A stretch of 64,000 nucleotides of DNA from contig VNWV01000009.1 in the NCBI GenBank assembly GCA_009801085.1, positions 62,001-126,000 on the forward strand, in the 5' to 3' direction. Under the pieces are notes generated by a model. That model did not search any database. It had not been told where the DNA came from and worked only from the letters and a program-made list of their open reading frames with translations. The DNA comes from Lasiodiplodia sp. COLG20 (taxonomy: Eukaryota; Ascomycota; Dothideomycetes; Botryosphaeriales; Botryosphaeriaceae). The position numbers and the translations under genes were made by a program. This document shows positions 1,423 through 51,354 of this stretch, piece by piece; position 1 is the first letter of the stretch; each line of letters begins with the position of its first letter.

Positions 1423-3652
1423 ATGTTGCTCCATCCGCGTGCTGTTTTGATAGGTGCTGTTGCACTCGTCGCTTCCACGGCACCTTCATTGGCTATTCAC
1501 TTGACGGTATCCCAAAATAGCGGAAATGCAACATCCTCGCACATGTGGGGTTTGATGTTTGAGGTGAGACATTCAACCATAGTGGGTGGGCAGGGACTGA
1601 TATGTCAGTGTAGGATATCAATCAATCGGGAGATGGCGGCCTTCATGGTCAGCTCATCCGCAACAATGGCTTCCAGGGGCCAGATCCGGATCTTGACGCC
1701 TACGGATCATTGAGCGGCACTTCCCTTGCGATTGATGATACAGTTCCACTCACGGATGCGATCCCCCGGACTCTTCGTGTCGATGTTGAAGCTGGAGCCA
1801 CTGGCGAGGCTGGTTTCATCAACTCTGGTTACTGGGGTGTGCCTGTTGATGGCAGCACTTATTCTCACTCGATCTACGTACGTGGAGACTATAGCGGTGA
1901 CATGACTTTCTCTCTGGTCGGAAACAGCAGTGGAACCGTTTTCGGCCAGAGCACATTTCACGTTGATAGCGTGTCTGACAAGTACACCCTTTTCAATGCC
2001 ACGGCAACGACCACAGAGACCAGCGAGACTGACGTTTCGTACCACTTGGTGTTTGATGCTGGGCTTGTCTCTGGATCCTCGCTGTGGTTCGCACTTCCTC
2101 AGCTCTATCCCACCACCTGGAACAACAGGTAAGGCCGGATTTCATCCGCTGTTGCGAATGTTTTGCTGACATCTCGTAGAGAAAATGGGTTGAAGCCGTG
2201 GATCGCTGAAACACTTGTCAATATCCAAGGGACATTTCTCCGATTTCCTGGAGGCAACAACCTGTATGTATTCAAATACTGCAGACCAAACGCATTTCTA
2301 ATAAGTCTTCTAGTGAGGGCCCTAATGTCGAAAACCGGTGGAAGTGGAACGAAACTATCGGCCCACTTGAAAACCGACCAGGACATCTAGGTCCGTGTGC
2401 AAAACACGAAATAAAGATATTCGTACTGACAACTTGGTAGGCACGTGGGGCTACACCAACACAGACGCTTTAGGTAAGTGCTTTTGTCCCAGGTGATTGA
2501 TAGATCTGCTAATGTAGTACCAGGTCTGCACGAATACCTCTACTGGTGCGAGGATATGGGTTTGGAACCGGTTCTCGCCATCTATGCCGGATACTCTCTC
2601 GACGGCACCGCCATCACTGGCGATGCACTGCAGCCTTACGTTCAAGAAGTCCTGAACGAACTCGAGGTGAGTTGTCGGCCAGCTTCAGTGCATATTCTTT
2701 TTACATGCAGCTAACTCTGATAGTATGTTCTTGGCGACACAAGCACGACATACGGTGCTCTACGCGCTTCGAATGGCCAAACGGACCCCTGGGACGTCAA
2801 ATACGTTGAGATCGGCAATGAGGATTACTTCGCCTGTGACACCTATCCCGAACGCCTGACTGTATTCCACGACGCCATCTCTCAGGCTTATCCAGACCTG
2901 CAGTTGATCGCCTCCACGGAAAACGCTACCTGCTTGCCTAACCCCATTCCTGAAGGCATCATACTGGACTTGCACAATTACAATTCCCCAGACGGATTTG
3001 TGGATCTATTCGGCTTTTTCGACAACACCGACCGGAGCCATCTCTATATGGTTGGCGAATACGCTCGAGTCAACATTGACTGGCCCGACATGCAGGGCTC
3101 TGTTGGAGAGGCTGTTTACATGCTGGGAATGGAGCGCAACAGCGACCTGATCAGGTTTGCCTCCTATGCCCCGTTACTTCGGCTAGTCGACAACCAACAG
3201 TGGCGAGTATGTGTTCTCATACCCATTCACAATTGATCCTGCTAACATAGACCCAGCCTGACTTGATTTCCTATCATCAAGCTCCCGACGCTATTTACCT
3301 TTCGACAAGCTATTATGTTCAGCAGCTCTTTGCTCAGAACCCTGGTGACACGACTCACGCCGTCACCTCGGACACCGCCTTTGGTCCTTTGTACTGGAGC
3401 GCCACAAGTTCGGGCAACACGTACATCGTGAAGCTCGCGAACTACGGCCAGGACGTTCAAGATGTAACCATTGAAATTGAGGGAAAGACGACTGCCACCC
3501 TCACCGTCTTGGCAAACGATGACCCGTCAGCTTCAAATACCGACACTGCTTCTCCCGTCAGTGCTCCCGTGGTATCGACAATCACAGCAACTGATGGGAC
3601 CTTTTCTTTCTCTGCACCGGCCTGGGCTGTCATTGTCTTGGCAGCTGAATAG
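1423..3652 (+). CDS. abfA: Alpha-L-arabinofuranosidase, GH51 (secreted)
   Basis: Removes arabinofuranosyl side chains from arabinoxylan and arabinan outside the cell. Eight exons join in phase: 1423-1563, 1614-2128, 2180-2263, 2314-2390, 2441-2473, 2524-2666, 2724-3206, 3257-3652, giving 623 aa, close to the roughly 628 aa of Aspergillus AbfA. The last acceptor could instead be 3250, adding two residues. An N-terminal signal peptide (MLLHPRAVLIGAVALVAST, cleavage near residue 24) is followed by the family's FEDINQSGDGG strand, the FRFPGGNNLEG motif, the acid/base Glu in GNED (about residue 364) and the nucleophile Glu in VGEYA (about residue 443). The start was chosen because the signal peptide begins there; the longer open frame upstream is not family-like. 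It lies next to an AA9 gene, which fits a plant cell-wall degradation setting. Confidence 0.93.
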
Positions 3653-4776
3653 AAGACGATGGTAAACAGAGCGGGGCTTCACCGCATCGTGTCTGGACTG
3701 AACTGTTTCACGTTAAACTGTATGCCCAGAAGATTTATCTGAAAGTTGCAGATTAATTTCCTTGGCATCGGGGGGATCTCCCCCACCACATTCCTTAGTA
3801 GCTAGTGGGCTTGTTAATCTAATCACCTCGCAAGATATTCCATCGTCGCGATATCAATTCGGTCCACTGATTGTATATTCAAAACAATATTATCTCCATT
3901 TGCGCCGTCCTTGTTTGGTTTCTCGAACGTGCACAACTGAGTGTCACTCGCGGCTTCACAGCTTCAAATATTTATCAGCGCACAAACTGGACTACATTTG
4001 TGGGTGTCATGGCCATCAGTCCTTCAATATCTATTTAATGTGGTGCTGGCTCCTCCTCGAGACCTTTGTCAGACCATCGGATGGCCTCCCGATTCTCGGA
4101 TGGCCTTCCGACCAACTGGGGACTTGAGTCATACACTGTTCCGAATATTTGACGAACTTGGACCCGTTCCTATCGCTAAGGCTGCTGTTAAATGTATCTT
4201 CAAGCTGCTCTTGAATAGTCCAGTAGCATTCCCAATCTTTAGCATACTTTGGTGAGTGATTACAGAAGACGAAGCGGATTTTCAGATAATATTGAGCTTA
4301 CCCGCCGTGCCCATTGAACGGAGTATTCCGCCCAGCATCGCCTCTACGCACCGATGAACGGCAATCCTGTCGATCATGTCTGTCGCGAACCTAATGCTAA
4401 AATCACAAAGATCATCGCTTAATACAGCCACATATCCGGGGATGGCGGGAGGCGCTGCTCTTTTCGGGTACATGCCGCGCACCAGTGCGCCTTTAGCGCC
4501 ACGCGGTCCCGGCCCCTGGCATATGCTTGAAACGGGCGCAAAAAGGTATGATTGGCTGTTTGGCGGTAGTTCGAACTATCCAACGAGGAAATTGGCCCAG
4601 ACATTTAGGAGCTGTTCACAGATTCCACAGCAATATAATCATCCCCAAAGCCAGGAAGAGATGCCACACGGGCAGTCTATCATTCATTTCACTTCTTTAC
4701 CGTTTCACTCTTTCTGAAAATCGCTTTTCGAGTAGCACAAAGTCTATTTGATTTTTTCTTCACTGTCGCTCTCGCA
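3653..4776. other. Intergenic between GH51 and AA9 genes
   Basis: About 1.1 kb with only short, unconvincing frames. It should hold the GH51 terminator and the AA9 promoter. I see no motif I would name. Confidence 0.5.
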
Positions 4777-5880
4777 ATGAAATTTTCTCCAATTGTTGCG
4801 ATCGCCTTTTCGGCCTGGTCCATTCCTTGCTCCGCTCATTACTTTTTTCCTCATCTCATTGTCGACGGCAACTTTACCGGGTACTTCGAGTACGTCCGGG
4901 AGACCACTCAAGGCTACATGCCCCAAAAGGGGATGTATGAGAGCACCGACTTTCGCTGCAACACAGGCTCTCAGGACTTTTCATCCAAAACCCTCGTCTA
5001 CGATGTTCAAGCCGGTGCCGAACTCGGGTTTGGGACCGACTTCAATGCACTGATCGAGCATCCCGGACCCATGAGCGTCTATTTATCACGGGCTCCTGGC
5101 GACGTCCGCGAATATGACGGCTCTGGCGACTGGTTCAAGATCTACGAGCTTGGCCCTCTTCCGGGCTGGACTGCCGATGGGTCCATCGAGTGGGGCGTCA
5201 CGGGGCTCGGCAACTTCACCTTCACGCTGCCCAGCCAGACTCCTGCTGGCCAGTATCTCGTGCGGATCGAACACATCGCCCTTCACGGTGCCGGCGAGTT
5301 CGGCGGCGCGGAGTTCTACTACAACTGCGCCCAGATCAATGTCTTGGGTGAGAGCACGGCCACCCCGGAGCCGACCGTTAAGATCCCGGGCGTCTACAAC
5401 GGTTCTGAGCCGGGGATTTTGTTCTACATGTACCGACCAGATTTGAATTACACCATCCCGGGCCCAGCTGTCTGGCCCTCCGCGAATGGGAACACGACGA
5501 TCGAACAAGCGGCCACGACGACTGGATCAAGGTCTATCAGTCAAATTCCAGCTTCGAGTACGCCTACTTCAGCCGTGTTCGTGTCAACTCCCTCCTCTTT
5601 TGTTGCCCCTTATCCCTTCAGCAACAACACGGCCGCCATCAATGCAACGGGTACTGGCTCTTCGTATGAAGCGGTGACTACAGTCCTTCCCAGTTTGCCC
5701 GTCGCGGCTGTTAATGCGGCTGCGGAAGCTCCACCCTCAGAGACGGTGGTGGTAACCCAGTACATCACTTCACTCCAACAGTCTCACTCCGGGGTTGCAA
5801 CGGCAACGGACTGTCCTGACTATACTGTTACTGTTACCGAAAGCAAAGTTGTCACGGTTACTGTAAACGCCGCAAATTAA
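4777..5880 (+). CDS. Lytic polysaccharide monooxygenase, AA9 (former GH61), with Ser/Thr-rich tail
   Basis: Copper enzyme that oxidatively cleaves cellulose or related beta-glucans. Single exon, 367 aa. A signal peptide (residues 1-20, ending CSA) leaves His21 as the mature N-terminus, the first copper-brace histidine. The second is His170 in EHIALHGAG. The axial Tyr is Tyr181 in EFYYNCAQ. The catalytic domain ends near residue 230; a Ser/Thr/Pro-rich stretch of about 130 residues follows and ends in repetitive TVTVTES/VTVTV. No CBM1 cysteine pattern is visible in the tail. At residue 179 the family's usual Gln (GAQFY) is Glu, an unusual second-sphere change. Whether the enzyme is active cannot be told from sequence. 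Confidence 0.9.
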   Translation: MKFSPIVAIAFSAWSIPCSAHYFFPHLIVDGNFTGYFEYVRETTQGYMPQKGMYESTDFRCNTGSQDFSSKTLVYDVQAGAELGFGTDFNALIEHPGPMSVYLSRAPGDVREYDGSGDWFKIYELGPLPGWTADGSIEWGVTGLGNFTFTLPSQTPAGQYLVRIEHIALHGAGEFGGAEFYYNCAQINVLGESTATPEPTVKIPGVYNGSEPGILFYMYRPDLNYTIPGPAVWPSANGNTTIEQAATTTGSRSISQIPASSTPTSAVFVSTPSSFVAPYPFSNNTAAINATGTGSSYEAVTTVLPSLPVAAVNAAAEAPPSETVVVTQYITSLQQSHSGVATATDCPDYTVTVTESKVVTVTVNAAN

Positions 5881-36936: not shown

Positions 36937-37884
36937 GATGGGGGGTTGGATTAAAACGTGATGAGGCTCTTCTCAGAGGTTAGCATAGAATGCCCTGTCA
37001 TTGAGTCAGGGCAGTGTGGAAACCATGCTTCCAGCTCGTAATATACCTCTGGTGAGGCTGAGACTGAGATAAAAGTGGTCATACCTGATTTCCCAATTTA
37101 GAAGCTCTGTTTCCTGACTAGGCGATGACATGCCTATTGTGAAACTCTTGGTGATTTTTTCAACACACCTAACTGGTTTGTTGCACGCGAACTGGCATTT
37201 ACATATTGATTCTACGTCATATTGTCGTGAGGGCTAAACTGGTAGGTCTTCCCGTATCAGCTCGCGGTGACATAGGTCAGTTTTAGCGAGGCTAAGAAAA
37301 GGATCATATCACCCCTGCATCATGCAATATTCATGCCGGCTGGGCAGTTTGGGAGTCATGTACTGCTCCCTGATGTCATTTGCTCATAGCGCAATATGAA
37401 AGATCTGCAAGGCTGACCCGAGCCCTAAATATATGACCAGCATTTCGGGAAGGTGACCGCGAATAGTCGGTGCGACCAGCGACAAGCTGGCAGTACAGGC
37501 GTAAAAGTGGATCCTTTGCAGCCTGGACTTTAGGATAAGAAGCCTTGCGGCATCAGTGACACGAGAGGAGGCCGAGAAAGCTGTCCGGTCATGTCTCTGA
37601 GGATGCACGATTCTGTCATACAGTGCTGCGTCCGCACAGGATCTAGGATAGGAATCTATAATGCAGTGTAGGCTGTCTCCACCATTATTTGTTCTAGTGA
37701 ACAATAATTAGGTGGCCTTGATAAGAAATGTTGCTGCCTGGTTCTCCGGAATTGTTTCCTAATTTGGCAATGCGACCGCAAACTACCCCGCCACCGTGTA
37801 ACCTTGGTCTGAGAGTTCAAGCTTCCCCTTACGCATTCTCTTGGTGATACACGATTATCGATACCGGCCGCCCATTTGCTCATC
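36937..37884. other. Intergenic, divergent promoters
   Basis: About 0.95 kb upstream of the DUF3433 locus (leftward) and the HET gene (rightward). A 106-codon minus frame at 37384-37704 has no recognisable character. Nothing else seen. Confidence 0.45.
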
Positions 37885-40197
37885 ATGGAACATCTTTTCA
37901 TGGACCTTGATGCCGTGACTATGGCGTCAAAGATCGCAGACGCCTGTAACTCACGGATGCTTCATGAAGACGATGTAACCACCAAAGCATCACTGGTGCC
38001 ACCAGTAAGGCCGCTGACAAGATGGAGACGATTCGATCATGATGGAACTAATGGAAATGGGTATCCGGTCTCCGAGAACTTTTCAGACTACCCAAAGCTC
38101 CGCGGCTGGGCTATTGAGCAAGTCTGGAATGAGGGAGACCTGAGGAAGGCCCATGCCCGCTTTCAAGATGACAAAATTAGCAACACGGAGGTAGTCGATC
38201 ACGTGGTTGCCATGCTCCAAAGTTGGCTGTATTTTGGATTCTTGGAAGCATTCACCAGGAAGCGCATCCACACATCATATTTCACAAGCCTTGACGAGGA
38301 GGGTCTGCCGGTTCTTCACTCAGGCTATCTCGGCTTCGCCTTCTTCGCATGGAAGCTTTCCTTGGAGGGAAGTTTGGAAGAGCTGCTGGACGCCACCTGG
38401 GAAATCCAGCTTTCTGTAGCTTCGATCGTCCAACTGCTATACCTGTGGACCGACCCTGGAACTACTCATGCTGTTCGAATTGAAAAGGACTTCCCGGGAT
38501 TTGCCGAGGCGGTCATCGATATCCTTCCCTCGGTTGTCCGGCTTTTTGATGCGATTTCTCTGGTGAGGGATGACGTTGCATCTGATAGCGGGCGGCGTAT
38601 CGTGGTCCTCCGCGGCCCAAGACACACCACTGCCCAGCGGGATAGAAGACTCTTGCAGAGAGGATGGTGCCCTTTCCTACTCCGGTTCTGCAAGGACAGC
38701 CTCCATGACTCCGTCCTTGATTGGCTGGACGGAACGCAAAGACATTCTGTCACTGCAGGACACGAGAGATGCTCTGAGATGGAGTGCGCAAGAAACAACA
38801 TCGATTCAACTACATATAGAACGCTTCACGTCCATGAAGGGTGCTCATGTGCCTCAGTCCAGCCCGATATAGAACAAGTCCTATCCATCGTCGACCAAGG
38901 CCAGATTCCAGTCATACTCCTTGGCGAGGAGTCAAAACTTAATGTTCAAGCGCATGACCCAAGTTCCGATGGAAATTACATTGCCATATCACATGTATGG
39001 GTTGATGGACTGGGTAGTGTGACAGAAAAGGGGTTGCCAAAGTGTCAAATTGAGAAGCTTGCTCATCTCGTTCAGGACGCTTCAGGCTCCGGTTCAACTC
39101 CTTTCTGGGTCGACTCTTTGTGCATTCCACAAGCTGTCGAACAGAGAAAGAAGTCCATCGCCCTTCTCAGAGATGTGTACCAAAGAGCCTCAAGCGTACT
39201 GGTAATCGATAAAACTATCAGCGCTTGTTCTTCTGAAGACGAGACCCCAATTGAAGACCTCCTTTGGGCCATCACATCTTCTTCATGGGCGCAACGGCTG
39301 TGGACTTACCAAGAAAGCTATCTCGCGCGCCGGCTACACCTATGCACCGCTCATGGCAAGATTATCACCTGGGATCTGGACTTCCCCTACTCCCGTATCC
39401 TATCAACGCTGCGAATCCTGTACACATCCTTCGAACAGCATCTCCGCAGCCTCCGACCTCCAACTGACCAAGCCGGCACGGACCGCAAAACGAATATCGG
39501 CCAGGTAGCCAGCGCCCTAAACTGGCGATCAACGAGCAGGAAAGCTGACGAGACCCTCGCTGTCGCTGCTCTCCTGCTCGTTGACACGCGCAAGCTCGTT
39601 GACACACCGGCAGATCCGCCTGCTGAACGCATGAAGCAGCTCTATCTCCTCGCTGTGGACATGCCTCACGACATCATCTTCTTCGACGGGCCGAACATGG
39701 TAGACTCGCCTTTCCGCTGGGCTCCGGAATCACTGATGACACGGTCGGCGACGATGCTGGATGTCGCGAACGAAGCTCACACTTCCCGATGCATGCTGGA
39801 TGGGCTGCACGGCGAGTATCTCGCGCTGATGATTGCGCAGCCACTGGTGGGAGCCAAAGGAAAGACCCTGTTTATTCAGGATCCGGATGAACATCCTTTT
39901 CCTTACGGGATTTTCTGGAGCCCTGAGTTTGCGCAAAACCCGACGGAGGTTGTCTTCGATGCTGTTATTGTTCGCCAGGTTGATGATGAGACGTACCTGA
40001 AGCCGGAGATTGGTACTGTCGTTGAGGGGGTTGCTGTGCGGACGGGATCGCGGTCTTCGGCGGGGCTGGTCTGCGATTGGGCTGGGCGCGTTACGTTGTT
40101 AAAATACGATCCTGACGATATCGCTGTGCCGAAGGAGCATGACTTTGGGGGCCTCAAAATGGCAAGGTGGGGAAAGTTGTCATTGGTGATACGATAA
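37885..40197 (+). CDS. HET-domain protein (heterokaryon incompatibility family)
   Basis: Predicted trigger or relay of programmed cell death in non-self recognition; cytosolic. Single exon, 770 aa from the ATG at 37885. The HET domain spans about 363-500: YIAISHVWVDGLGS (365-378), FWVDSLCIPQ (407-416), KKSIALLRDVYQRASSVLVID, and SSWAQRLWTYQES (about 466-478). These are the three conserved HET blocks with their invariant Asp, Cys, Arg and Trp residues. The 360-residue N-terminal region is helical and of unknown family, and contains a Cys/His pair of short clusters (HERCSEMEC, HVHEGCSCA) just before HET. The C-terminal 270 residues are not recognisable. It is the first of three recognition-type genes in this block. 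No sign of disruption. Confidence 0.85.
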   Translation: MEHLFMDLDAVTMASKIADACNSRMLHEDDVTTKASLVPPVRPLTRWRRFDHDGTNGNGYPVSENFSDYPKLRGWAIEQVWNEGDLRKAHARFQDDKISNTEVVDHVVAMLQSWLYFGFLEAFTRKRIHTSYFTSLDEEGLPVLHSGYLGFAFFAWKLSLEGSLEELLDATWEIQLSVASIVQLLYLWTDPGTTHAVRIEKDFPGFAEAVIDILPSVVRLFDAISLVRDDVASDSGRRIVVLRGPRHTTAQRDRRLLQRGWCPFLLRFCKDSLHDSVLDWLDGTQRHSVTAGHERCSEMECARNNIDSTTYRTLHVHEGCSCASVQPDIEQVLSIVDQGQIPVILLGEESKLNVQAHDPSSDGNYIAISHVWVDGLGSVTEKGLPKCQIEKLAHLVQDASGSGSTPFWVDSLCIPQAVEQRKKSIALLRDVYQRASSVLVIDKTISACSSEDETPIEDLLWAITSSSWAQRLWTYQESYLARRLHLCTAHGKIITWDLDFPYSRILSTLRILYTSFEQHLRSLRPPTDQAGTDRKTNIGQVASALNWRSTSRKADETLAVAALLLVDTRKLVDTPADPPAERMKQLYLLAVDMPHDIIFFDGPNMVDSPFRWAPESLMTRSATMLDVANEAHTSRCMLDGLHGEYLALMIAQPLVGAKGKTLFIQDPDEHPFPYGIFWSPEFAQNPTEVVFDAVIVRQVDDETYLKPEIGTVVEGVAVRTGSRSSAGLVCDWAGRVTLLKYDPDDIAVPKEHDFGGLKMARWGKLSLVIR

Positions 40198-41293: not shown

Positions 41294-44200
41294 GAGCATA
41301 CGCTAGTCGACCCGACTGCACTCGCTGATCATAATCCAGGTTACGATATCAATGACTATTTGCGTGAGATTAAGGCTGAGGAGTGCAGCTCGCCTCCAAA
41401 CAGCGTTGCTCCAACATACGTCTCTTTCGGGAACGATGGAACAACAGCTACTGTCACTGCTATGGGGCAACTTATGCAGATGACCAGTTTTCTAGGAAAA
41501 GGTCGATCTGGATTCTTCTGTGTGGATGGGCCACATACGCCAGAACCAAGCTACGTGATGAAGAGGGCGCAAAAGCTCATGGAGCTGAGCAACCAAAAAG
41601 GTCCGATCGGTCTCGACCTTCACCCAGAAGAGGACACGTCCGAGAACATGCGTAGCCTGTGTGAGAAGAAGCCTGATCTAGAGTTCATTCGCGATCGCTG
41701 GCCACGGTTCACCTCCCAGAACGAGCGTTTACGAAGTACGAGGCAATATTTTGTCCACGATAGCACTGTTTGGGACGTTTGGACTTTCACAGCAAAGCAC
41801 GAGCACGAGCCTGTCCCGGAGATCAACAGAATGCGCTTCAATGCGAAGCTGTTGATTAGAGAACTGGATTTTGTTGATTCCAACCACAGCTTCAACGCAG
41901 AATCAGCCTACAAAGCTTGTGGACCCCATGGCAAAGCTCGTAACAGCATTATCCTGACCCATGACGGCCAAAACTTCGAGAACATCAATAGCGTCATCAG
42001 TCTGGCTGTGTCATTCTTTGTCAATGGTGAGCCTCGAGAGATTGAAAAAGAAGACAACGCCATCTTCTGTATCAGGGGTCAGGAGGGATCTCCCGGTGGC
42101 AGGACATTGACATTTTCCACTGCCTACAAACTTCACTCATCGTCGAACCCCAATGTCCAAAATACTCCGACCCTTCTACATTGCAAGTTTCAGGATATCT
42201 TGACGGAACCTTATGCTGTACTTTCGTTCTCTTCGGATCCACACCTAGACTTCGTTGTTCGGAGAACCCTGGAACACATTCTCTCTGTTTGCAGCATCCC
42301 TGTGATCTCACACAACGGCGGGACTGGAGCGATGGTTGCTTTGACCTGCGGGGACAAGTCAGGTCACCGGCTTGTGAACAAAGCTAGCTTGTAAGTATGG
42401 CACGAATGAGAACCGCGATACTGTTTGGTAACTGACACAGTCCAGCTTCGCATTCCAATTCCTTCTACTGGTGTATCGGATCCTTGAAGAGGCCAACAGT
42501 GAAGGACATACGGAGTTCCGAAACTACCTGAAAGGCAGGATCGAGACGACGTGTCGAGCGCATCTGGAGTGGCTATTCTCCAAGTCGACCGAGAAAGTGG
42601 ACGACCGCTTCATAACAAACTACTGGGCTACCGGAAAGGGGATCAAACGTCGCGGAACACAGGAGAATCAGAATGTCCAGCGCAATGAGGGTACCGACTC
42701 ATACAGGACTCTTGGCGACGAGTCATTGGCCAATACTCCTCTCCAGATCATCAAGTTGGCGAACTTCATCCACAACATCAAAAGCGATGACCAATGGCTC
42801 CGAGAGAGTTTCGAAACTTTGAGACCTGTTGTGCACTCCTGGATCAGGTCGCTGAAGAAAGGAGACAAACGCGGGTTCACTGCGTTCCCACGACCAGAGG
42901 CCAATGAATACCGCCTTCGAGACCACGTGTGGATATGGAAAGCCTTGAAATCACTTGAGAACCTGGGATACAGTTATCTTCTAAGAATGCATGAAGAATT
43001 CCAGCCGCACACGGAAGAAACCAACGCGCAACCAATGCAGCCTGACTCGCAAGATAGGTCTTGTCCAACCAGGGATTATTCCTCCGCGGCGGTCCAGAAC
43101 AAAGTTCTACAACGATTCACCACCGAGAACCCTTCATCAAAGCAACGGATTATAGCTGTTGCACGCACATCTGCATCGACAAGATTCATGATCCATTCGC
43201 GAGATTCTGCGTTGTTTTTGAACGATGACTTTTTCTCCAAAGCACGTTCACTTTGGAACATGACATTGAACGCGCAGCAGTTTCACCAGGAAAACGAGGA
43301 TTCCTTTTGGAGCAACCCTTTGCAATATGCAATCGGGCTTCTAGTAGCAGAAAAGGGCTTTCAAATCAACTCCAAATCGCCAAACGAAATGCTCGACGAG
43401 TCCTCGCGGGTACTACGAGAATGCATATCGAAGAATGGCCTATTTACTGGGAAGATAAACGATGTCACGAAAGAGCCGGAGTTGTTTTTGGACGAAACCT
43501 GGAGAGACTTCTACTGGCACGTCGGCTTTGAAGTTCCTTTCATCCTTCTGAATCTTCACCAGTCGAGCAACTTCTCCTTTGAGCCTAGAACGTGGAACCA
43601 AATGAAGCAGCCAACAAAAGCAGAAAAGCTCCCAACTCAATTGGGGTATGACGGAGCCACTGGCCAACATCGCGATTCTATTCTGGATAAAGGAAGCCCC
43701 GACATGAAAAGGTTCTTGCCATTCAACACTCTCATCGATCAAAGTAGCATCACGGAAATTGCCGATGAGTGGCTCTATCCCTACCCGGACTTCCTAGATT
43801 TCGACCCGAAAATCAAACGCAGGTTTGCGGAGCCGGAGACCCTGGGCAAGTGCGGGCTTGAAACGGGAGAGTTCATCACGAAAGCGATAGAATTGTTCAA
43901 GAGGAGAAGGCAGCTGAAGGACTCTAAAGAGTTGAGGGGAATCATTGTCGACATTCCGAAGGCTGTACGCTCTTGGATCTACGGTATGACCGAAAAGCAT
44001 CGCAATCAAAGCGATGAAGGAAAGTGCTTTGACAACGGTCGACTCAAAGAGCAACTAGATACCCACCGCATCGCACAGACTGCCAAGAAAAGGCTAATTT
44101 GGATGCCAAACGCTGATCACGACACTGGCTTACTTTGTTTTCTTGGATCACCTGTCTCTGAGCGTATCTGTCTGGCCTCCTTTTTCGACAAACACGAACA

Positions 44201-45470
44201 CCGCGAGAAGTTTGTCTCCGACGAGACAACAGCAGCATTGAACAAGTGGCAAACAGAATTTCACCTATCGTGGTATCGGCTAGTTCGTGTATGCCGTCGA
44301 AGTCCATGCGAAGAGATCAGCTTTCTTGGAGGCAAGTCGAAATTGGAACATGCCTCTCTCAGCTTTATCTTCATCGGAGACTTCTTTGATAGGTACTGGA
44401 CCTGTCGTGTTCTTGAGTACGACCCAGATTCGGTGAACAACCTTCAGGTCCCTCAAAACCTGCAACGGCGCTTCAAGGAGATCATCGAGCCACAGGATTT
44501 TCTCCCTGTAACTGATCTCGACAAAGGATCTTGGCGTCAGCGCAAAATCCTCGAACTCCTTCTGTTTGATTGCGCACTTCGACGAAGCTTGGACGATTTC
44601 AAAGAGATAATTAATGCAATTATCGACGAATTACTCGAGCTTCTTTCAAGACAAAAGCAAGGACGTCCTGGAGAAGAGATAGAGAAACAAAACTCCAAGG
44701 GTCAGAGGCCCGAAGAATCTGGTCTGCCACGGTTGAACAAGCTACTTTCCTCAAAAATGGGTACTGGGGCCTACATGTCTTTCAGCAAAAGGTGGCCGAC
44801 AATCCAATATACCTTACAGGTGATTGAGGATGACCTTCAAAGCATTCTTGACTTGGTGAAGCTTTGGGATAATCGTGAAAAAGACCGTGAGCCTGAAAGA
44901 CCTCGCTGGACAAAGGACGACGAGCGCAAATACCGGTCAGCTATAACCAAACTGACGTTCTCGAACAAGAAGAGAGTTCGGCAGCTGGAGGAGCGACTGC
45001 GTGTCGTTCAGTCCCTCAGAGCTTCTCTCACCAACAGGCTGGACTCTGTTCGGAACGAACTGAGTTTTCAAAGTGCTCATAATATTCTTGCTTTCACCTG
45101 GGCTACTTTCATCTTCTTTCCTTTGGGCTTTGCAGCAGCACTTCTCAGCATGAATGGGGTCCCCAGGCGCCCGGAGTTGACCCTTTGGGGAATCTTAGCT
45201 GTCTGTTTTCTCTTTTGCACAATTACTGCTTTCATCGTCACATCTCACAGATTCTCGGTCATGCAGACTGTTTCTCAGTTGAAGTTTCCAGCGTTCCATA
45301 ACCGGCACAGCTCCGAGTCCAGAAGTCCTGGATCATGTCCACACCACAAACCAATCAATCATCCACAAAGATTCGGTCAACGATTTTGGCGATACTTGCG
45401 GTTCAACAGAGGAGACCAAGTGACGGAAGAGCAAGAGAGGAGAGAAGAACCACCGGAGAAAACGGTCTAA
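41294..45470 (+). CDS. Giant protein with C-terminal CorA-like membrane module (5' end unresolved)
   Basis: At least about 1,370 residues. The open frame runs from 41294 to 42390, crosses an intron (42391-42445) in phase, and continues from 42446 to the stop at 45470. No convincing start ATG lies in frame before 41454, so a small upstream exon is likely. The first 1,100 residues belong to no family I can name; they are soluble and rich in Trp and charged residues. Then comes a coiled coil (VRQLEERLRVVQSLRASLTN, about 44973-45032) and two membrane helices: AFTWATFIFFPLGFAAALLS ending in SMN, and LWGILAVCFLFCTITAFIV. This coiled-coil-plus-two-helix end matches CorA topology, with SMN at the GMN position. 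Such chimeras often accompany NLR and HET genes in fungi, but the role is unknown. Confidence 0.68.
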
Positions 45471-46519: not shown

Positions 46520-46527
46520 ATGGCTGA
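46504..46527 (+). promoter_or_regulatory. Overlapping upstream ORF at the NLR start
   Basis: An ATG at 46504 opens a seven-codon frame (MPLLKNG) whose TGA at 46525-46527 lies just inside the NLR coding region, whose ATG is at 46520. If the transcript includes it, ribosomes must skip it or reinitiate backwards, which would keep receptor levels low. The transcript start is unknown. Confidence 0.5.
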
Positions 46528-49500
46528 AATTGAACTCAGTCATGAAGACTACACAGTTGGTTGGGTTTGTCCGTTGGAAGTGGAACTGATTGCGGCTTTG
46601 GAAATGCTCGACAAGTCGCACAAGCCACTCGAGCAAGCGAAAGAAGACTCGAATGCATACCACCTCGGCGAAATTAACGGCCACAATGTGGTGGTGGCAA
46701 CTCTTCCATTTACGGGAAACGCTCCGACGGCCACCGTTGTCACTCAGATGCGACGAACATTTCCCCAATTACGGTTCGGACTACTCGTTGGAATAGGTGG
46801 TGGGGTTCCGACAAAGACGAACAGCGGGCACATCAGACTTGGGCATGTGGTTGTGAGCAAGCCTGAGGGAGAACATTCAGGTGCAGTGCAGTACGATCAC
46901 GGCAAGGCTCAAACTGGTGGGTTTCGGCGCACTGGCTTTTTGGCCCCACCACCCAATGTTCTTCTTGCTGCCGCTCAGCAACTAGCCGCGAACAGGGCAA
47001 GAGTAAGGGAAGATCCACTCCTACAGCATATCGGCCGCATCGATACCTCTATTAAAGGACTTCGGAAATACCGATATCCGGGCCTGGCAAACGATATCCT
47101 GTATCGACCGGACTACATTCACCGCGATCCAACACTTTCCTGCAAGAAATGTGGATGTGACCCAGAGCAATCAGTTCCAAGACCCTCTGCCAATGACAGC
47201 GATGACAGCGACGACGAAGATGCTGAAATGGACGACGGTGATACTATTGTCATACACAGAGGTACAGTCGCATCTGGCGAACTGGTTATTAAAGACGGTC
47301 TCATGCGTGATGAGCTAGCGAAGCAGTACGGCATCATCTGTTTTGAGATGGAAGCAGCTGGAGCACTAGCGGACTTTCCGTGCATAGTGATTCGAGGAAT
47401 TTCTGACTACTCCGACTCACACAAAAATGACAAATGGCACGGATACGCTGCAGCAGCTGCTGCAGCTTACGCGAGGGAGCTGTTTTTCCATATGCCTGTA
47501 AACCAAGTCAAGCTCTGTTCAGTACCACAAGAGGGTTAGTTATCAAATGAATCATTTCCCACTTACCATTCGGGATAACTGACATGACGTCAACCTCTGG
47601 TCCAGACGTCAAGCAGATAAAGTTACACGTCGAAGATACCAATGCCAACGTGCAACGAATAGCGGAAGAAAAGACGGACGAAGCACTGCGATACTTGCTA
47701 TCACCACCAAATGTCACAAAGAATTACGAAGATGCGCTGGAACAACGCCATGACGGTACAGGCGACTGGTTTCTCCAAAGTGAAATATTTACCGAATGGA
47801 AAAACAACCCGGACTCAATTCTCTGGCTCCATGGAATGCCTGGATGCGGCAAGACAATTCTCAGTGCTTCAATCATGGAGCATCTCCAACAGGAGGCTGA
47901 ATCCTCATCGAAAACCGTCCTCTATTTCTTTTTCACTTTCAGCGATGAAAGCAAGAGGTCGGCGCGGAGTATGGTGTGTTCATTCATTTTCCGCCTTTAC
48001 CACAGATTCAAACAGCATTCCAGCAAGCATGTCAAGCGTTTGCTTGATAGATGCAAAGATGGTTACCTACCTGGACTCAGCTTCCTCCTCGACACCCTCC
48101 ATTCAATCTTGGATGCAATTGAGGATGACGTCATGTTTGTTCTGGACGCCCTTGATGAATGTGGAACGCTTGACGATCTGATCCCGTGGCTGAGGAGATT
48201 GCACGGCAGAACAGCAAAGGATGAGACGGCAAAAGTCGAAAATGCGAAACGGTTCCGCGTCATTATCACAAGCCGTCCAGAGGAACGTCTAGAAGCTCAG
48301 TTTCGAGAATGGGGAGAGCAGGAGAGAATCATTGGACTGGAAGAGCATCTAGTCAACAAAGACATCCACGCATTTGTTTGGAAGAGCCTTCAGGAGACAG
48401 ATCCAGTCTCGAATCCGAAGTACTTTCAGCTCGCTGAGAGGATGAGATACTGGGAGGAAGATCGCGAGTCCATCAGTGATCAGCTGGCAAATAAAGCGGC
48501 ATCGATGTGAGTACGTTAGGATCAACATATATTATTGTGCTAAGTGTGTCCGCAGGTTCAGATGGGTAGCATGTCAGTTAGATGCGTTGTCAATGTGTCG
48601 CAAACGGGATACCTTCAAAAGCACACTCGAGTCTCTTCCCAAGACCCTTGATGAGACATATCTCAGGATCCTGGATGAGATTCCAGAAGCAGATAAAGAA
48701 AGCTGCATCAGGATTCTGCAATTCCTCATGTTTTCGGAACGACCTTTAAGGAGCGACGAGGTAAACGATCTGATTGCCATACCTACAGAATCGCAGCTGC
48801 TATTCGACCCCAGAAACCGTATGCGCCCGGAAGACATTCCTGCAGTGTGCTCTAGCTTGGTGACTGTCACTGAGGAGGAACCATATGCAGTGATCCAACT
48901 GTCGCATTTCTCCGTCAAGGAATATCTCTCCTCTGATCGGCTGGAGACCAAATTTCAGAGGTTTTTTACTGAGTCAAAAGCCCGGGAATCGATCGTGGAA
49001 CTCAGCATACGTTATATTTCCTCGATAGCTTTGAGACTAAACGCTCCGGTCATCAAAGTTAGATATCCATTCGCCGAATACGCAGCCTGTCACTGGATAG
49101 ACCACGCTTCGGTAGCAGAAAAAAGTGAATGTGTCCGAAAGTGCATTCTCCATTTCTTCTTCCCGGAAATGCAGGTCCCTTATTTGAATTGGCTTGAGCT
49201 GTTCGATCCGGATCAGTTGAGCCAGTCCCACTCCTCGGAGAATCAGGTTTCTTATCGGAGCTGGCTTGAGCAGCTGTTCCATTCGGATCGGTCGGACGGT
49301 GAATCTGGTTCAGAACAAACGTCGGATTTGGATGACAATTTTGCTTGGGGCCATGACCAGATAATCGACGCTTCCGAAACAAGCCCACCAGATGGCGGTC
49401 CTTCGCCGATTTACTACACATCGCTTCATGGATTGAGTCGCACGACAAAAGACTTGATCATTGCTGGTGCTGCAGTCAATGGCAGTGGTGGTAGTTTCGG

Positions 49501-51354
49501 TCCTGCTCTGCAGGCTGCCTGTCTGATGGGCCATCGAGATATTGCCGAAATTCTTCTCGATAATGGGGCTGATGTGGATGCGAAAGTGCCGAAGTCCAGT
49601 GGCACCGCCCTCATCGCCACGATATCAGGAGGAGATGAGGATTTAGCAACATTGCTCCTAGAGCGAGGAGCCGACGCAAATCTGTCGGGGTATTATCCTA
49701 AAGACAGCAGGAAGGTTGCCTTTCCTGTATGCCTGGCGTCCGACAACGGATCTGAGAACATGGTACGCCTCCTCCTGGAGCACGGTGCAAAACCCGAGAC
49801 GAAGGATGACAATCAATTTCAACATTCGGCTCTGGTAAAAGCTTGTTATAGGTCCCACTATAGTGTGGTGAAGCTTCTACTGGACAGCGGAGCCGACGCC
49901 AACTTCAATAACCGTCTTCGCACACCTCTTATCTCCGCTTCAACGACTGGAAACACCGACATTATCAGATTGCTTCTAGACCATAGCGCAGATCCCAACA
50001 GCGAGGTCGAAGTGTTCAATTATGCAACGACTGCACTGTTTGCAGCATGTGTAGCGGGAAACCCTGAGGCAGTTGATTTGCTTTGTAGCAATGGAGCCAA
50101 TGTCAATGCCCTTATGCCCGTTCATGGCAGTGCTCTGAAGTATGCACTGAGGTTCAAAGATGAACGAATTGCTATTTCGTTGTTTACTAAAGGTGCACGC
50201 TTTGAGGGAACCTCACATAGTGTTGGATCCTCTGAACACATAATGTTGGACAAAAAGACATCTATCAACAATCAGGGGCCTCAACAGATCGAGGCACTCC
50301 AAATAGCTTGCAAAAGAGGGTTCGCGCGATTCAGCAAGCTGCTAATCGACCAGTACCTTGCATCTGAGAGGTTAACCATTCAGAGTAGCGATTTCCTGCA
50401 GATTGCGTCATACTGGGGGAACAGAGATATTGTACAAAAACTTCTGAATGACGGAGCATTCGCCAACTCTGCCGCCGGTCCATATGGCACTTCTTTGCAA
50501 GCTGCTTCTGCCAAAGGAAATTTAGAAGTAGTGCGGCTACTACTTGACGATGGAGCAGATCCAAATACAATGGACTGGCACGGATGGCCTGCGCGTACAA
50601 TTGGATTGAAGAATGGACATGCGGAAATCGCCCAGGTTCTGGCCCCAGTCACTATCAACTATCCTTTCCGCACGTGTCTTTACCCTTCTGCCATACGTCA
50701 AGTTGGGGAATATTCAACAAAAGTCTATCATCAGGGGACAGAACTAGAAGTCGGTGAGTGTATACATGTACGCCTGCTGAGATTTATGGAGCTTAACCTA
50801 CTTGACAGGCCCGTGTCCACTCGCACGGCAGTACCAGGCAAATCACCCATTTGTAGCAACGGAGCTGCACGCTTATTTCGAGGTGAAGTTGCTAAGCAAA
50901 GACGTACTCCAGTAAGTATTCAGAAAAGACGTGGGCATCATTATGTGTCGACTAAGCAATGACAGGTGTTTTCAAATTGGAGTTTGCGGTGAGGAATTTG
51001 AAACCTCGGAAATGTCCTCAAAATCACTTGATTGGGGATACTTGAACCATGGACTCGTCGCCGGGAGGTATAGCCCACGGGTCCAGTGGCTAGTGTATCG
51101 AACAGGGGATACTATCGGCTGCGGAGTTGATTACAGCACTGACATGCTGTACTTTACCAGAAATGGCCAGTGTTCCGGTACTTAAACCTCGCTCTTTTCT
51201 TCCTGAAAACGCTAATGTGAATTTAGGGAAAATTGATGGTGCACCAACGGGAAGACTTTTTGCTGTCATTGTAGTCGGCAGGAGTGATGAGGTCACTCGG
51301 TTTTGCGTTGATTTTGATGCAAAATCTCCGTTTAAGCAGTCCGCATCTACATAA
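46520..51354 (+). CDS. NOD-like receptor: PNP/UDP phosphorylase - NACHT - ankyrin repeats - SPRY
   Basis: Candidate intracellular non-self receptor. Six exons join exactly in phase (46520-47534, 47606-48506, 48556-50753, 50809-50911, 50966-51177, 51227-51354) to 1518 aa. Residues about 12-325: nucleoside-phosphorylase-like domain (YTVGWVCPLEVELIAA, LLVGIGGGVP, CFEMEAAGALADFPC, IRGISDYSDSHKN) with a Cys/Asp-rich insert. NACHT: Walker A GMPGCGKT (415-422), Walker B FVLDALDEC (516-524), sensor-like ITSRPEE, winged-helix part to about 800. About eleven ankyrin repeats (about 920-1335), e.g. ALQAACLMGHRDIAEILLDN. C-terminal SPRY (about 1380-1510): HAYFEVKLL, LDWGYLNHG, RTGDTIGCGVD, LYFTRNG, GRLFAVIVV. 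N-terminal PNP and ankyrin repeats are usual in fungal NLRs; a terminal SPRY is not. All motifs look intact. Confidence 0.88.

Follow-up and report, generated by a model that had tools for sequence, protein, structure and literature searches.

Where does the C-terminal SPRY domain of a fungal NOD-like receptor (NLR) come from, and what might it add to the receptor? The question is raised by a gene at positions 46520-51354 (+) of a 64,000-nucleotide stretch from Lasiodiplodia sp. COLG20 (assembly GCA_009801085.1, contig VNWV01000009.1, positions 62,001 to 126,000 of the forward strand), which is called the window below. This gene, the study NLR, encodes in order a PNP-like nucleosidase domain, a NACHT domain, ankyrin (ANK) repeats and a SPRY domain. 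Taking all lines of analysis together, we consider it rather probable that it is a PNP-NACHT-ANK-SPRY NLR with a nucleosidase-based response, and that its SPRY belongs to a type of RanBPM/Gid1 ancestry carried by two distant NACHT lineages.

NLRs of a similar layout have been published. A survey of Sordariales (PMC12258605, PLoS Genet 2025) counts 46 SPRY-bearing NLRs, in which the SPRY is invariably C-terminal and accompanied by ankyrins, lists PNP_UDP_1 among the canonical N-termini of fungal NLRs, proposes a sensor role for SPRY and already draws the comparison with fish NLR-B30.2. The original prediction for this locus had named beforehand, as a refutation, a survey of fungal NLRs showing the architecture to be already described, and with these 46 genes the claim of a layout newly gained by this gene falls. 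The combination PNP-NACHT-ANK-SPRY is not named in the examined parts of PMC12258605; the terms RanBP, Gid1, Vid30 and CTLH never occur in its main text, and SPRY is not traced there to RanBPM/Gid1. Among the open-licence papers listed in literature searches, none connects the SPRYs of fungal NLRs with RanBPM/Gid1 by its title or the opening of its abstract. The NACHT-ANK-SPRY design is already described in fungi, and what appears to be new here is the probable origin link to Gid1/RanBPM.

Gene structure and domain content

Splicing of the window DNA joined six exons into 4,557 bases with a single terminal stop, encoding 1,518 residues. Exon 1 (46520..47534; this and all following parts on the + strand) holds the PNP/MTAN-like nucleosidase domain (residues 1-338), exon 2 (47606..48506) carries NACHT with Walker A GMPGCGKT and Walker B FVLDALDEC, and exon 3 (48556..50753) covers the end of the NACHT module, a winged-helix/linker part and about 12 ankyrin repeats. 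The SPRY is divided among exon 4 (50809..50911), exon 5 with the SPRY core (50966..51177) and exon 6 with the stop (51227..51354). All five introns are of the GT...AG type, with lengths of 71, 49, 55, 54 and 49 bases: intron 1 (47535..47605, phase 1), intron 2 (48507..48555, phase 2), intron 3 at the ankyrin-SPRY junction (50754..50808, phase 1), intron 4 (50912..50965, phase 2) and intron 5 (51178..51226, phase 1). The genome also encodes a paralog, L012 (1,539 residues, same domain order), whose five introns all occupy identical alignment columns and phases (1, 2, 1, 2, 1), at identities of 63.7% in PNP, 36.6% in NACHT, 39.9% in the winged-helix/linker part, 32.7% in the ankyrins and 31.8% in SPRY. 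Since the five introns match in so diverged a paralog, the splicing model is independently supported.

A Pfam search of the spliced protein, suggested with the original prediction, placed every domain above its cut-off: PNP_UDP_1 at residues 240-316 (31.9 bits, cut-off 25.1), NPHP3_N at 389-562 (137.2 bits), NACHT at 410-573 (55.5 bits), Ank_2 (163.6 bits) and SPRY at 1394-1500 of 1518 (41.0 bits, cut-off 26.3, E 2.4e-10). The SPRY match spans profile positions 3-115 of 121 and reaches 45.9 bits when the C-terminal 178 residues are searched alone. The exon coordinates and 1518-residue frame first proposed by hand were thus exact to the base, both Walker motifs lie in the spliced protein with NACHT over its cut-off, and the division of SPRY over three exons holds; the ankyrin repeats are present as predicted, their number being about 12 units in a by-eye recount and not about eleven. 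At E 0.001 no PRY family matched either the full-length protein or the C-terminal piece taken separately, LisH and CTLH had no match in the protein, and the ankyrin repeats, searched for near-identical tandem copies, gave none. With a NACHT bearing both Walker motifs, superstructure-forming C-terminal repeats and the known N-terminal class PNP_UDP_1, the predicted protein is a fungal NLR receptor of the signal transduction ATPases with numerous domains (STAND) class, in the order PNP-NACHT-ANK-SPRY, and its one C-terminal SPRY adjoining the ankyrins fits the layout given in PMC12258605.

SPRY-tailed NLRs in the genome

The surveyed genome comprises 43.5 million bases in 88 contigs and has at least 155 NPHP3_N matches as well as 47 PNP matches (threshold E 1e-10), hand-grouped into 38 loci. 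A search with the SPRY family returned seven places, one of which (L007/L013) is below the family cut-off. Five of the seven lie behind ankyrins (the study NLR, L012, L010, L011 and L013) and two do not (L008 and L009). In L012, Pfam gave SPRY 48.8 bits, NACHT 29.5 bits and PNP 20.0 bits; this PNP score is below the cut-off of 25.1, and the domain was accepted because it is 63.7% identical to that of the study NLR over the whole PNP part. L010 and L011 have NACHT and ankyrins before SPRY, and PNP was looked for in both with no match. The C-terminal pieces of L010, L012 and L011 likewise gave no PRY match at E 0.01. An eighth locus, L017 (C24:98500-105500), was found through the SPRY of L012 (E 0.013) and consists of PNP-NACHT-ANK followed by SPRY exons. 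As a result, six of the eight SPRY loci follow ankyrins, five of these six have NACHT and three have PNP, and in each of the five NLRs the final ankyrin is followed directly by SPRY. The earlier statement that this gene has gained a SPRY is therefore not specific to it, since at least five NACHT-ANK-SPRY genes and one ANK-SPRY remnant occur in the same genome.

The remnant, L013, lies in shifted frames at 3594-4960. Neither NACHT nor PNP was matched ahead of it in L013 or L014, and L014 gave no match when searched with the study NLR and L012 proteins. L013 was observed about 4 kb before L015, the closest PNP-NACHT paralog (74% for PNP), and no SPRY match was found near L015 in the 9.9 kb examined. 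The split SPRY of L017, absent from the seven PF00622 places, was missed by the exon-by-exon search, a warning that such profile searches overlook split tails and may under-count them.

Origin of the SPRY tail

Two SPRY genes without preceding ankyrins served as comparison. L009 has SPRY (54.2 bits), CTLH (83.7 bits) and LisH just short of the cut-off (20.4 bits, cut-off 21.6) and matches RanBP9/10 at 188-189 bits, and was accordingly identified as the RanBPM/Gid1 gene. L008 we take to be an Ssh4-like SPRY gene. Among solved structures, the nearest to the SPRY tails are Ran-binding proteins 9/10, with 67.8 bits (E 9.5e-18) for L010 and a weak 22.5 bits (E 6.4e-4) for the study NLR. In an all-against-all comparison the SPRYs of L010 and L011 reached 68-110 bits with Gid1/RanBP9/10 and 21-42 bits with the Ssh4-like gene, and for L010, L011 and L012 no other non-NLR row scored above Gid1 or RanBP9/10. 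The SPRYs of the study NLR and L012 are nearest each other (67 bits), then L010/L011 (36-38), then Gid1/RanBP9/10 (22-37). A P-[ST]-R-W segment was observed ahead of the Pfam SPRY in L010 and L011 and also in L009, so the Gid1 likeness may extend upstream of the Pfam domain.

The introns inside the domain are the stronger sign of Gid1 type, as judged from the aligned sequences. In the study NLR, L012, L010, L011 and L009, the Gid1 gene, introns 4 (phase 2) and 5 (phase 1) fall in identical columns. For a 130-codon domain, a uniform model puts the probability that two genes agree by chance at both sites at about 1e-5. The Ssh4-like gene has a single intron in the SPRY stretch, at another site that matches neither. 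Intron 3, ahead of the SPRY core, has phase 1 in each of the five NLRs; the alignment is poor there (columns 44 to 51), and the frame of L009 needs no intron at that site. Two other assignments were rejected: an Ssh4-like donor by its different intron and lower scores, and identity with a fish-like B30.2 by the absent PRY match and the nearer RanBP9/10.

Distribution over NACHT lineages

Comparison proteins were taken from the best 120 of 2,693 PNP relatives in the protein collection. None of these 120 has PF00622 among its listed domains, which are incomplete for one protein, and the SPRY profile run on them gave at most 1.4 bits (positive control P0001, 324.3 bits), so that, judged by these 120, only a minority of PNP NLRs would carry a SPRY tail. 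A protein search with the SPRY region yielded one of 111 candidates for the study NLR (P0001, a multi-SPRY protein) and none of 144 for L012, negatives that are weak because the search needs shared 5-residue words and SPRY evolves fast.

A NACHT tree was built from 24 rows, six from this genome and 18 from the best 120 listed homologs. The NACHTs of L010/L011 were split from the PNP-type NACHTs with a Shimodaira-Hasegawa-like approximate likelihood ratio test (SH-aLRT) support of 100, though their tails share exon structure; that of the study NLR was not grouped with L012/L017, and all three lay among PNP NLRs with no listed SPRY. The SPRY label requires three changes on this tree. A single NACHT lineage for all SPRY NLRs, considered as a candidate, was ruled out by it. 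The pattern points to a Gid1-derived SPRY module that was probably swapped between NLRs, and one capture followed by swapping would explain the shared intron 3.

Several points weigh against this reading. The study NLR SPRY scores 21.9-23.7 bits with Gid1/RanBP9/10, against 16.9 with the Ssh4-like gene and 16.7 with SPRYD3; as it is the most diverged and the gap is small, its own sequence barely places it, and the case for a Gid1 type is one that rests on L010/L011 and on the introns. In L017 intron 5 is identical and intron 4 is two columns off, and the SPRY of that locus (19.7 bits) is below the Pfam cut-off. SPRY trees agree weakly, with the NLR group supported at 71/76 and 70/87, the latter with long-branch warnings. 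Two separate captures from Gid1, or losses, are possible instead of swapping, and the introns themselves may be an ancient feature of the SPRY family. The gene model is a prediction from sequence, and the mechanism, including cleavage of ATP by the PNP part, is a proposal.

The PNP nucleosidase domain

The predicted structure of the PNP part is of fair confidence, with a predicted local distance difference test score (pLDDT) of 83.6 and a predicted template modelling score (pTM) of 0.88, and its best fold matches are futalosine hydrolase and methylthioadenosine/S-adenosylhomocysteine nucleosidases (best E 2.8e-13). E22, E278 and D296 align with the catalytic residues (Glu, Glu and Asp) of solved nucleosidase relatives, which correspond in role to E12, E174 and D197 of E. 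coli MTAN. In a 121-row alignment these residues are conserved in 117, 120 and 117 rows respectively, the four misses of E22 being gaps. The PNP part is thus modelled as a nucleosidase of MTAN/PNP fold. Nearly all of the best 120 listed relatives are 58-68% identical to it, with one at 41%. Within the genome it was observed to be 64-74% identical to its two closest paralogs, the remaining parts being about 30-40% identical; that PNP is far more conserved than the rest may reflect either strong constraint on PNP or domain exchange.

Proposed mechanism and rival explanations

From the gene structure, domains, catalytic residues, shared introns and two NACHT lineages, which were seen directly, a course of events may be sketched. 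A ligand or altered self protein would be bound by the ankyrin and/or SPRY part, nucleotide exchange in NACHT would lead to oligomerisation, and the clustered N-terminal nucleosidases might then split the base off ATP/dATP or a similar nucleotide, so that the hyphal compartment would die or arrest in non-self recognition or defence. The nucleotide-destruction step is favoured because of the nucleosidase fold, the conserved catalytic residues and a published link to bacterial ATP nucleosidases. As for its origin, a RanBPM/Gid1 SPRY would have been taken over with its two inner introns and joined behind ankyrins, once, with swapping thereafter. That SPRY forms a second binding module in the study NLR is a fair guess.

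One objection is that the SPRY exons are a separate gene and that NLR transcripts stop in the ankyrins. The ankyrin frame does run open to 50962, and the model was read from DNA, but introns 3-5 are kept in position and phase in L012, and L010, L011 and L017 have three similarly placed introns before and inside SPRY; we regard such an artefact as very improbable. The original prediction instead took this gene to have acquired, on its own and convergently with fish, a ligand sensor of B30.2 type after the ankyrins. A NACHT receptor with a C-terminal SPRY invites that view, and the authors of PMC12258605 draw the same comparison. Given five or more genes of this layout in the genome beside the 46 of Sordariales, no PRY match and RanBP9/10 as the nearest SPRY type, it seems quite improbable; the likeness to the vertebrate layout is superficial, as the SPRY is RanBPM/Gid1-like by its introns and by the sequence of its less diverged relatives.

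Other rivals concern what a Gid1-like tail would do. It might be an integrated decoy that mimics Gid1, the receptor firing if the GID/CTLH ligase or its partners become the target of a parasite or rival protein. The intron cassette is Gid1-like, the SPRY of Gid1/RanBP9 is an interaction surface in the GID ligase (PMC9180843), and kinase decoys derived from CHK-2 have been proposed for other fungal NLRs (PMC12258605). A decoy should keep the mimicked surface, yet the SPRYs of the study NLR, L012 and L017 are far diverged from Gid1, and any effector or partner is hypothetical. Because of that divergence in the study NLR the decoy, although possible, is not favoured, and we hold it unlikely. The fuller proposal, in which a captured Gid1 exon cassette was swapped among NLRs and now lets the receptors monitor the GID/CTLH ligase, its integrity or its partners, and answer with nucleotide destruction, is put forward as speculation of low probability. 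SPRY could also cap the ankyrin stack in a structural or regulatory role, holding the receptor off and sensing nothing, as its place immediately after the final ankyrin in each of the five NLRs would allow. Since SPRY is lacking from the best 120 PNP relatives, many with NACHT and ankyrins, the receptor class needs no such cap, and this role appears doubtful.

Genomic neighbourhood

Upstream of the study NLR by about 6 kb lies an open frame with a HET domain (PF06985, 46.6 bits; window 37813-40194, +), and the two possibly form a small incompatibility cluster. The nearest long same-strand frame upstream, of 1,012 residues (window 42432-45467, +), has a weak C-terminal CorA-like match of 24.0 bits, below the cut-off.

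Comparison with known systems

The useful part of this work is a traceable SPRY origin, in that a donor family, Gid1/RanBPM, is named and the intron signature of the module can be sought in other fungi. It also makes it possible to test whether the tail is a free sensor or instead a decoy of the GID/CTLH ligase, and its presence on distant NACHT lineages is relevant to the diversification of fungal NLR repertoires.

Fish NLRs have N-termini and repeats that differ from those of the study NLR. Teleost NLR-B30.2 (NLR-C) proteins resemble it as NACHT receptors ending in a SPRY-fold domain, but their B30.2 consists of PRY plus SPRY (PMC12258605), whereas the study NLR has no PRY match. Fungal PNP-NACHT-ANK NLRs, annotated as 'Pfs, NACHT and ankyrin domain protein' and found among the best 120 listed relatives, for example in Aspergillus, Aureobasidium and Friedmanniomyces, share NACHT and ankyrins with it where these are present. 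The original paper on bacterial immune ATP nucleosidases is reportedly that of Rousset and colleagues. Fungal NLR PNP_UDP_1 domains have been linked to these enzymes (PMC10197012; PMC11249213). Like the Detocs PNP effector and its relatives among them, the study NLR carries a PNP-superfamily effector domain, matched by the PADLOC profile 'Effector, PN-superfamily' at 57.7 bits, but the match covers a small part of the profile (positions 412-495 of 506) and the activity is predicted. RanBPM/RanBP9/Gid1 (Vid30), the SPRY-LisH-CTLH subunit of the GID/CTLH ubiquitin ligase, shares with the study NLR the SPRY type and the positions and phases of two inner introns; it differs by its LisH and CTLH, and no ligase role is implied for the receptor. 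Close counterparts in layout are the Sordariales NLRs of PMC12258605, which join NACHT, ankyrins and a single C-terminal SPRY just as the study NLR does.

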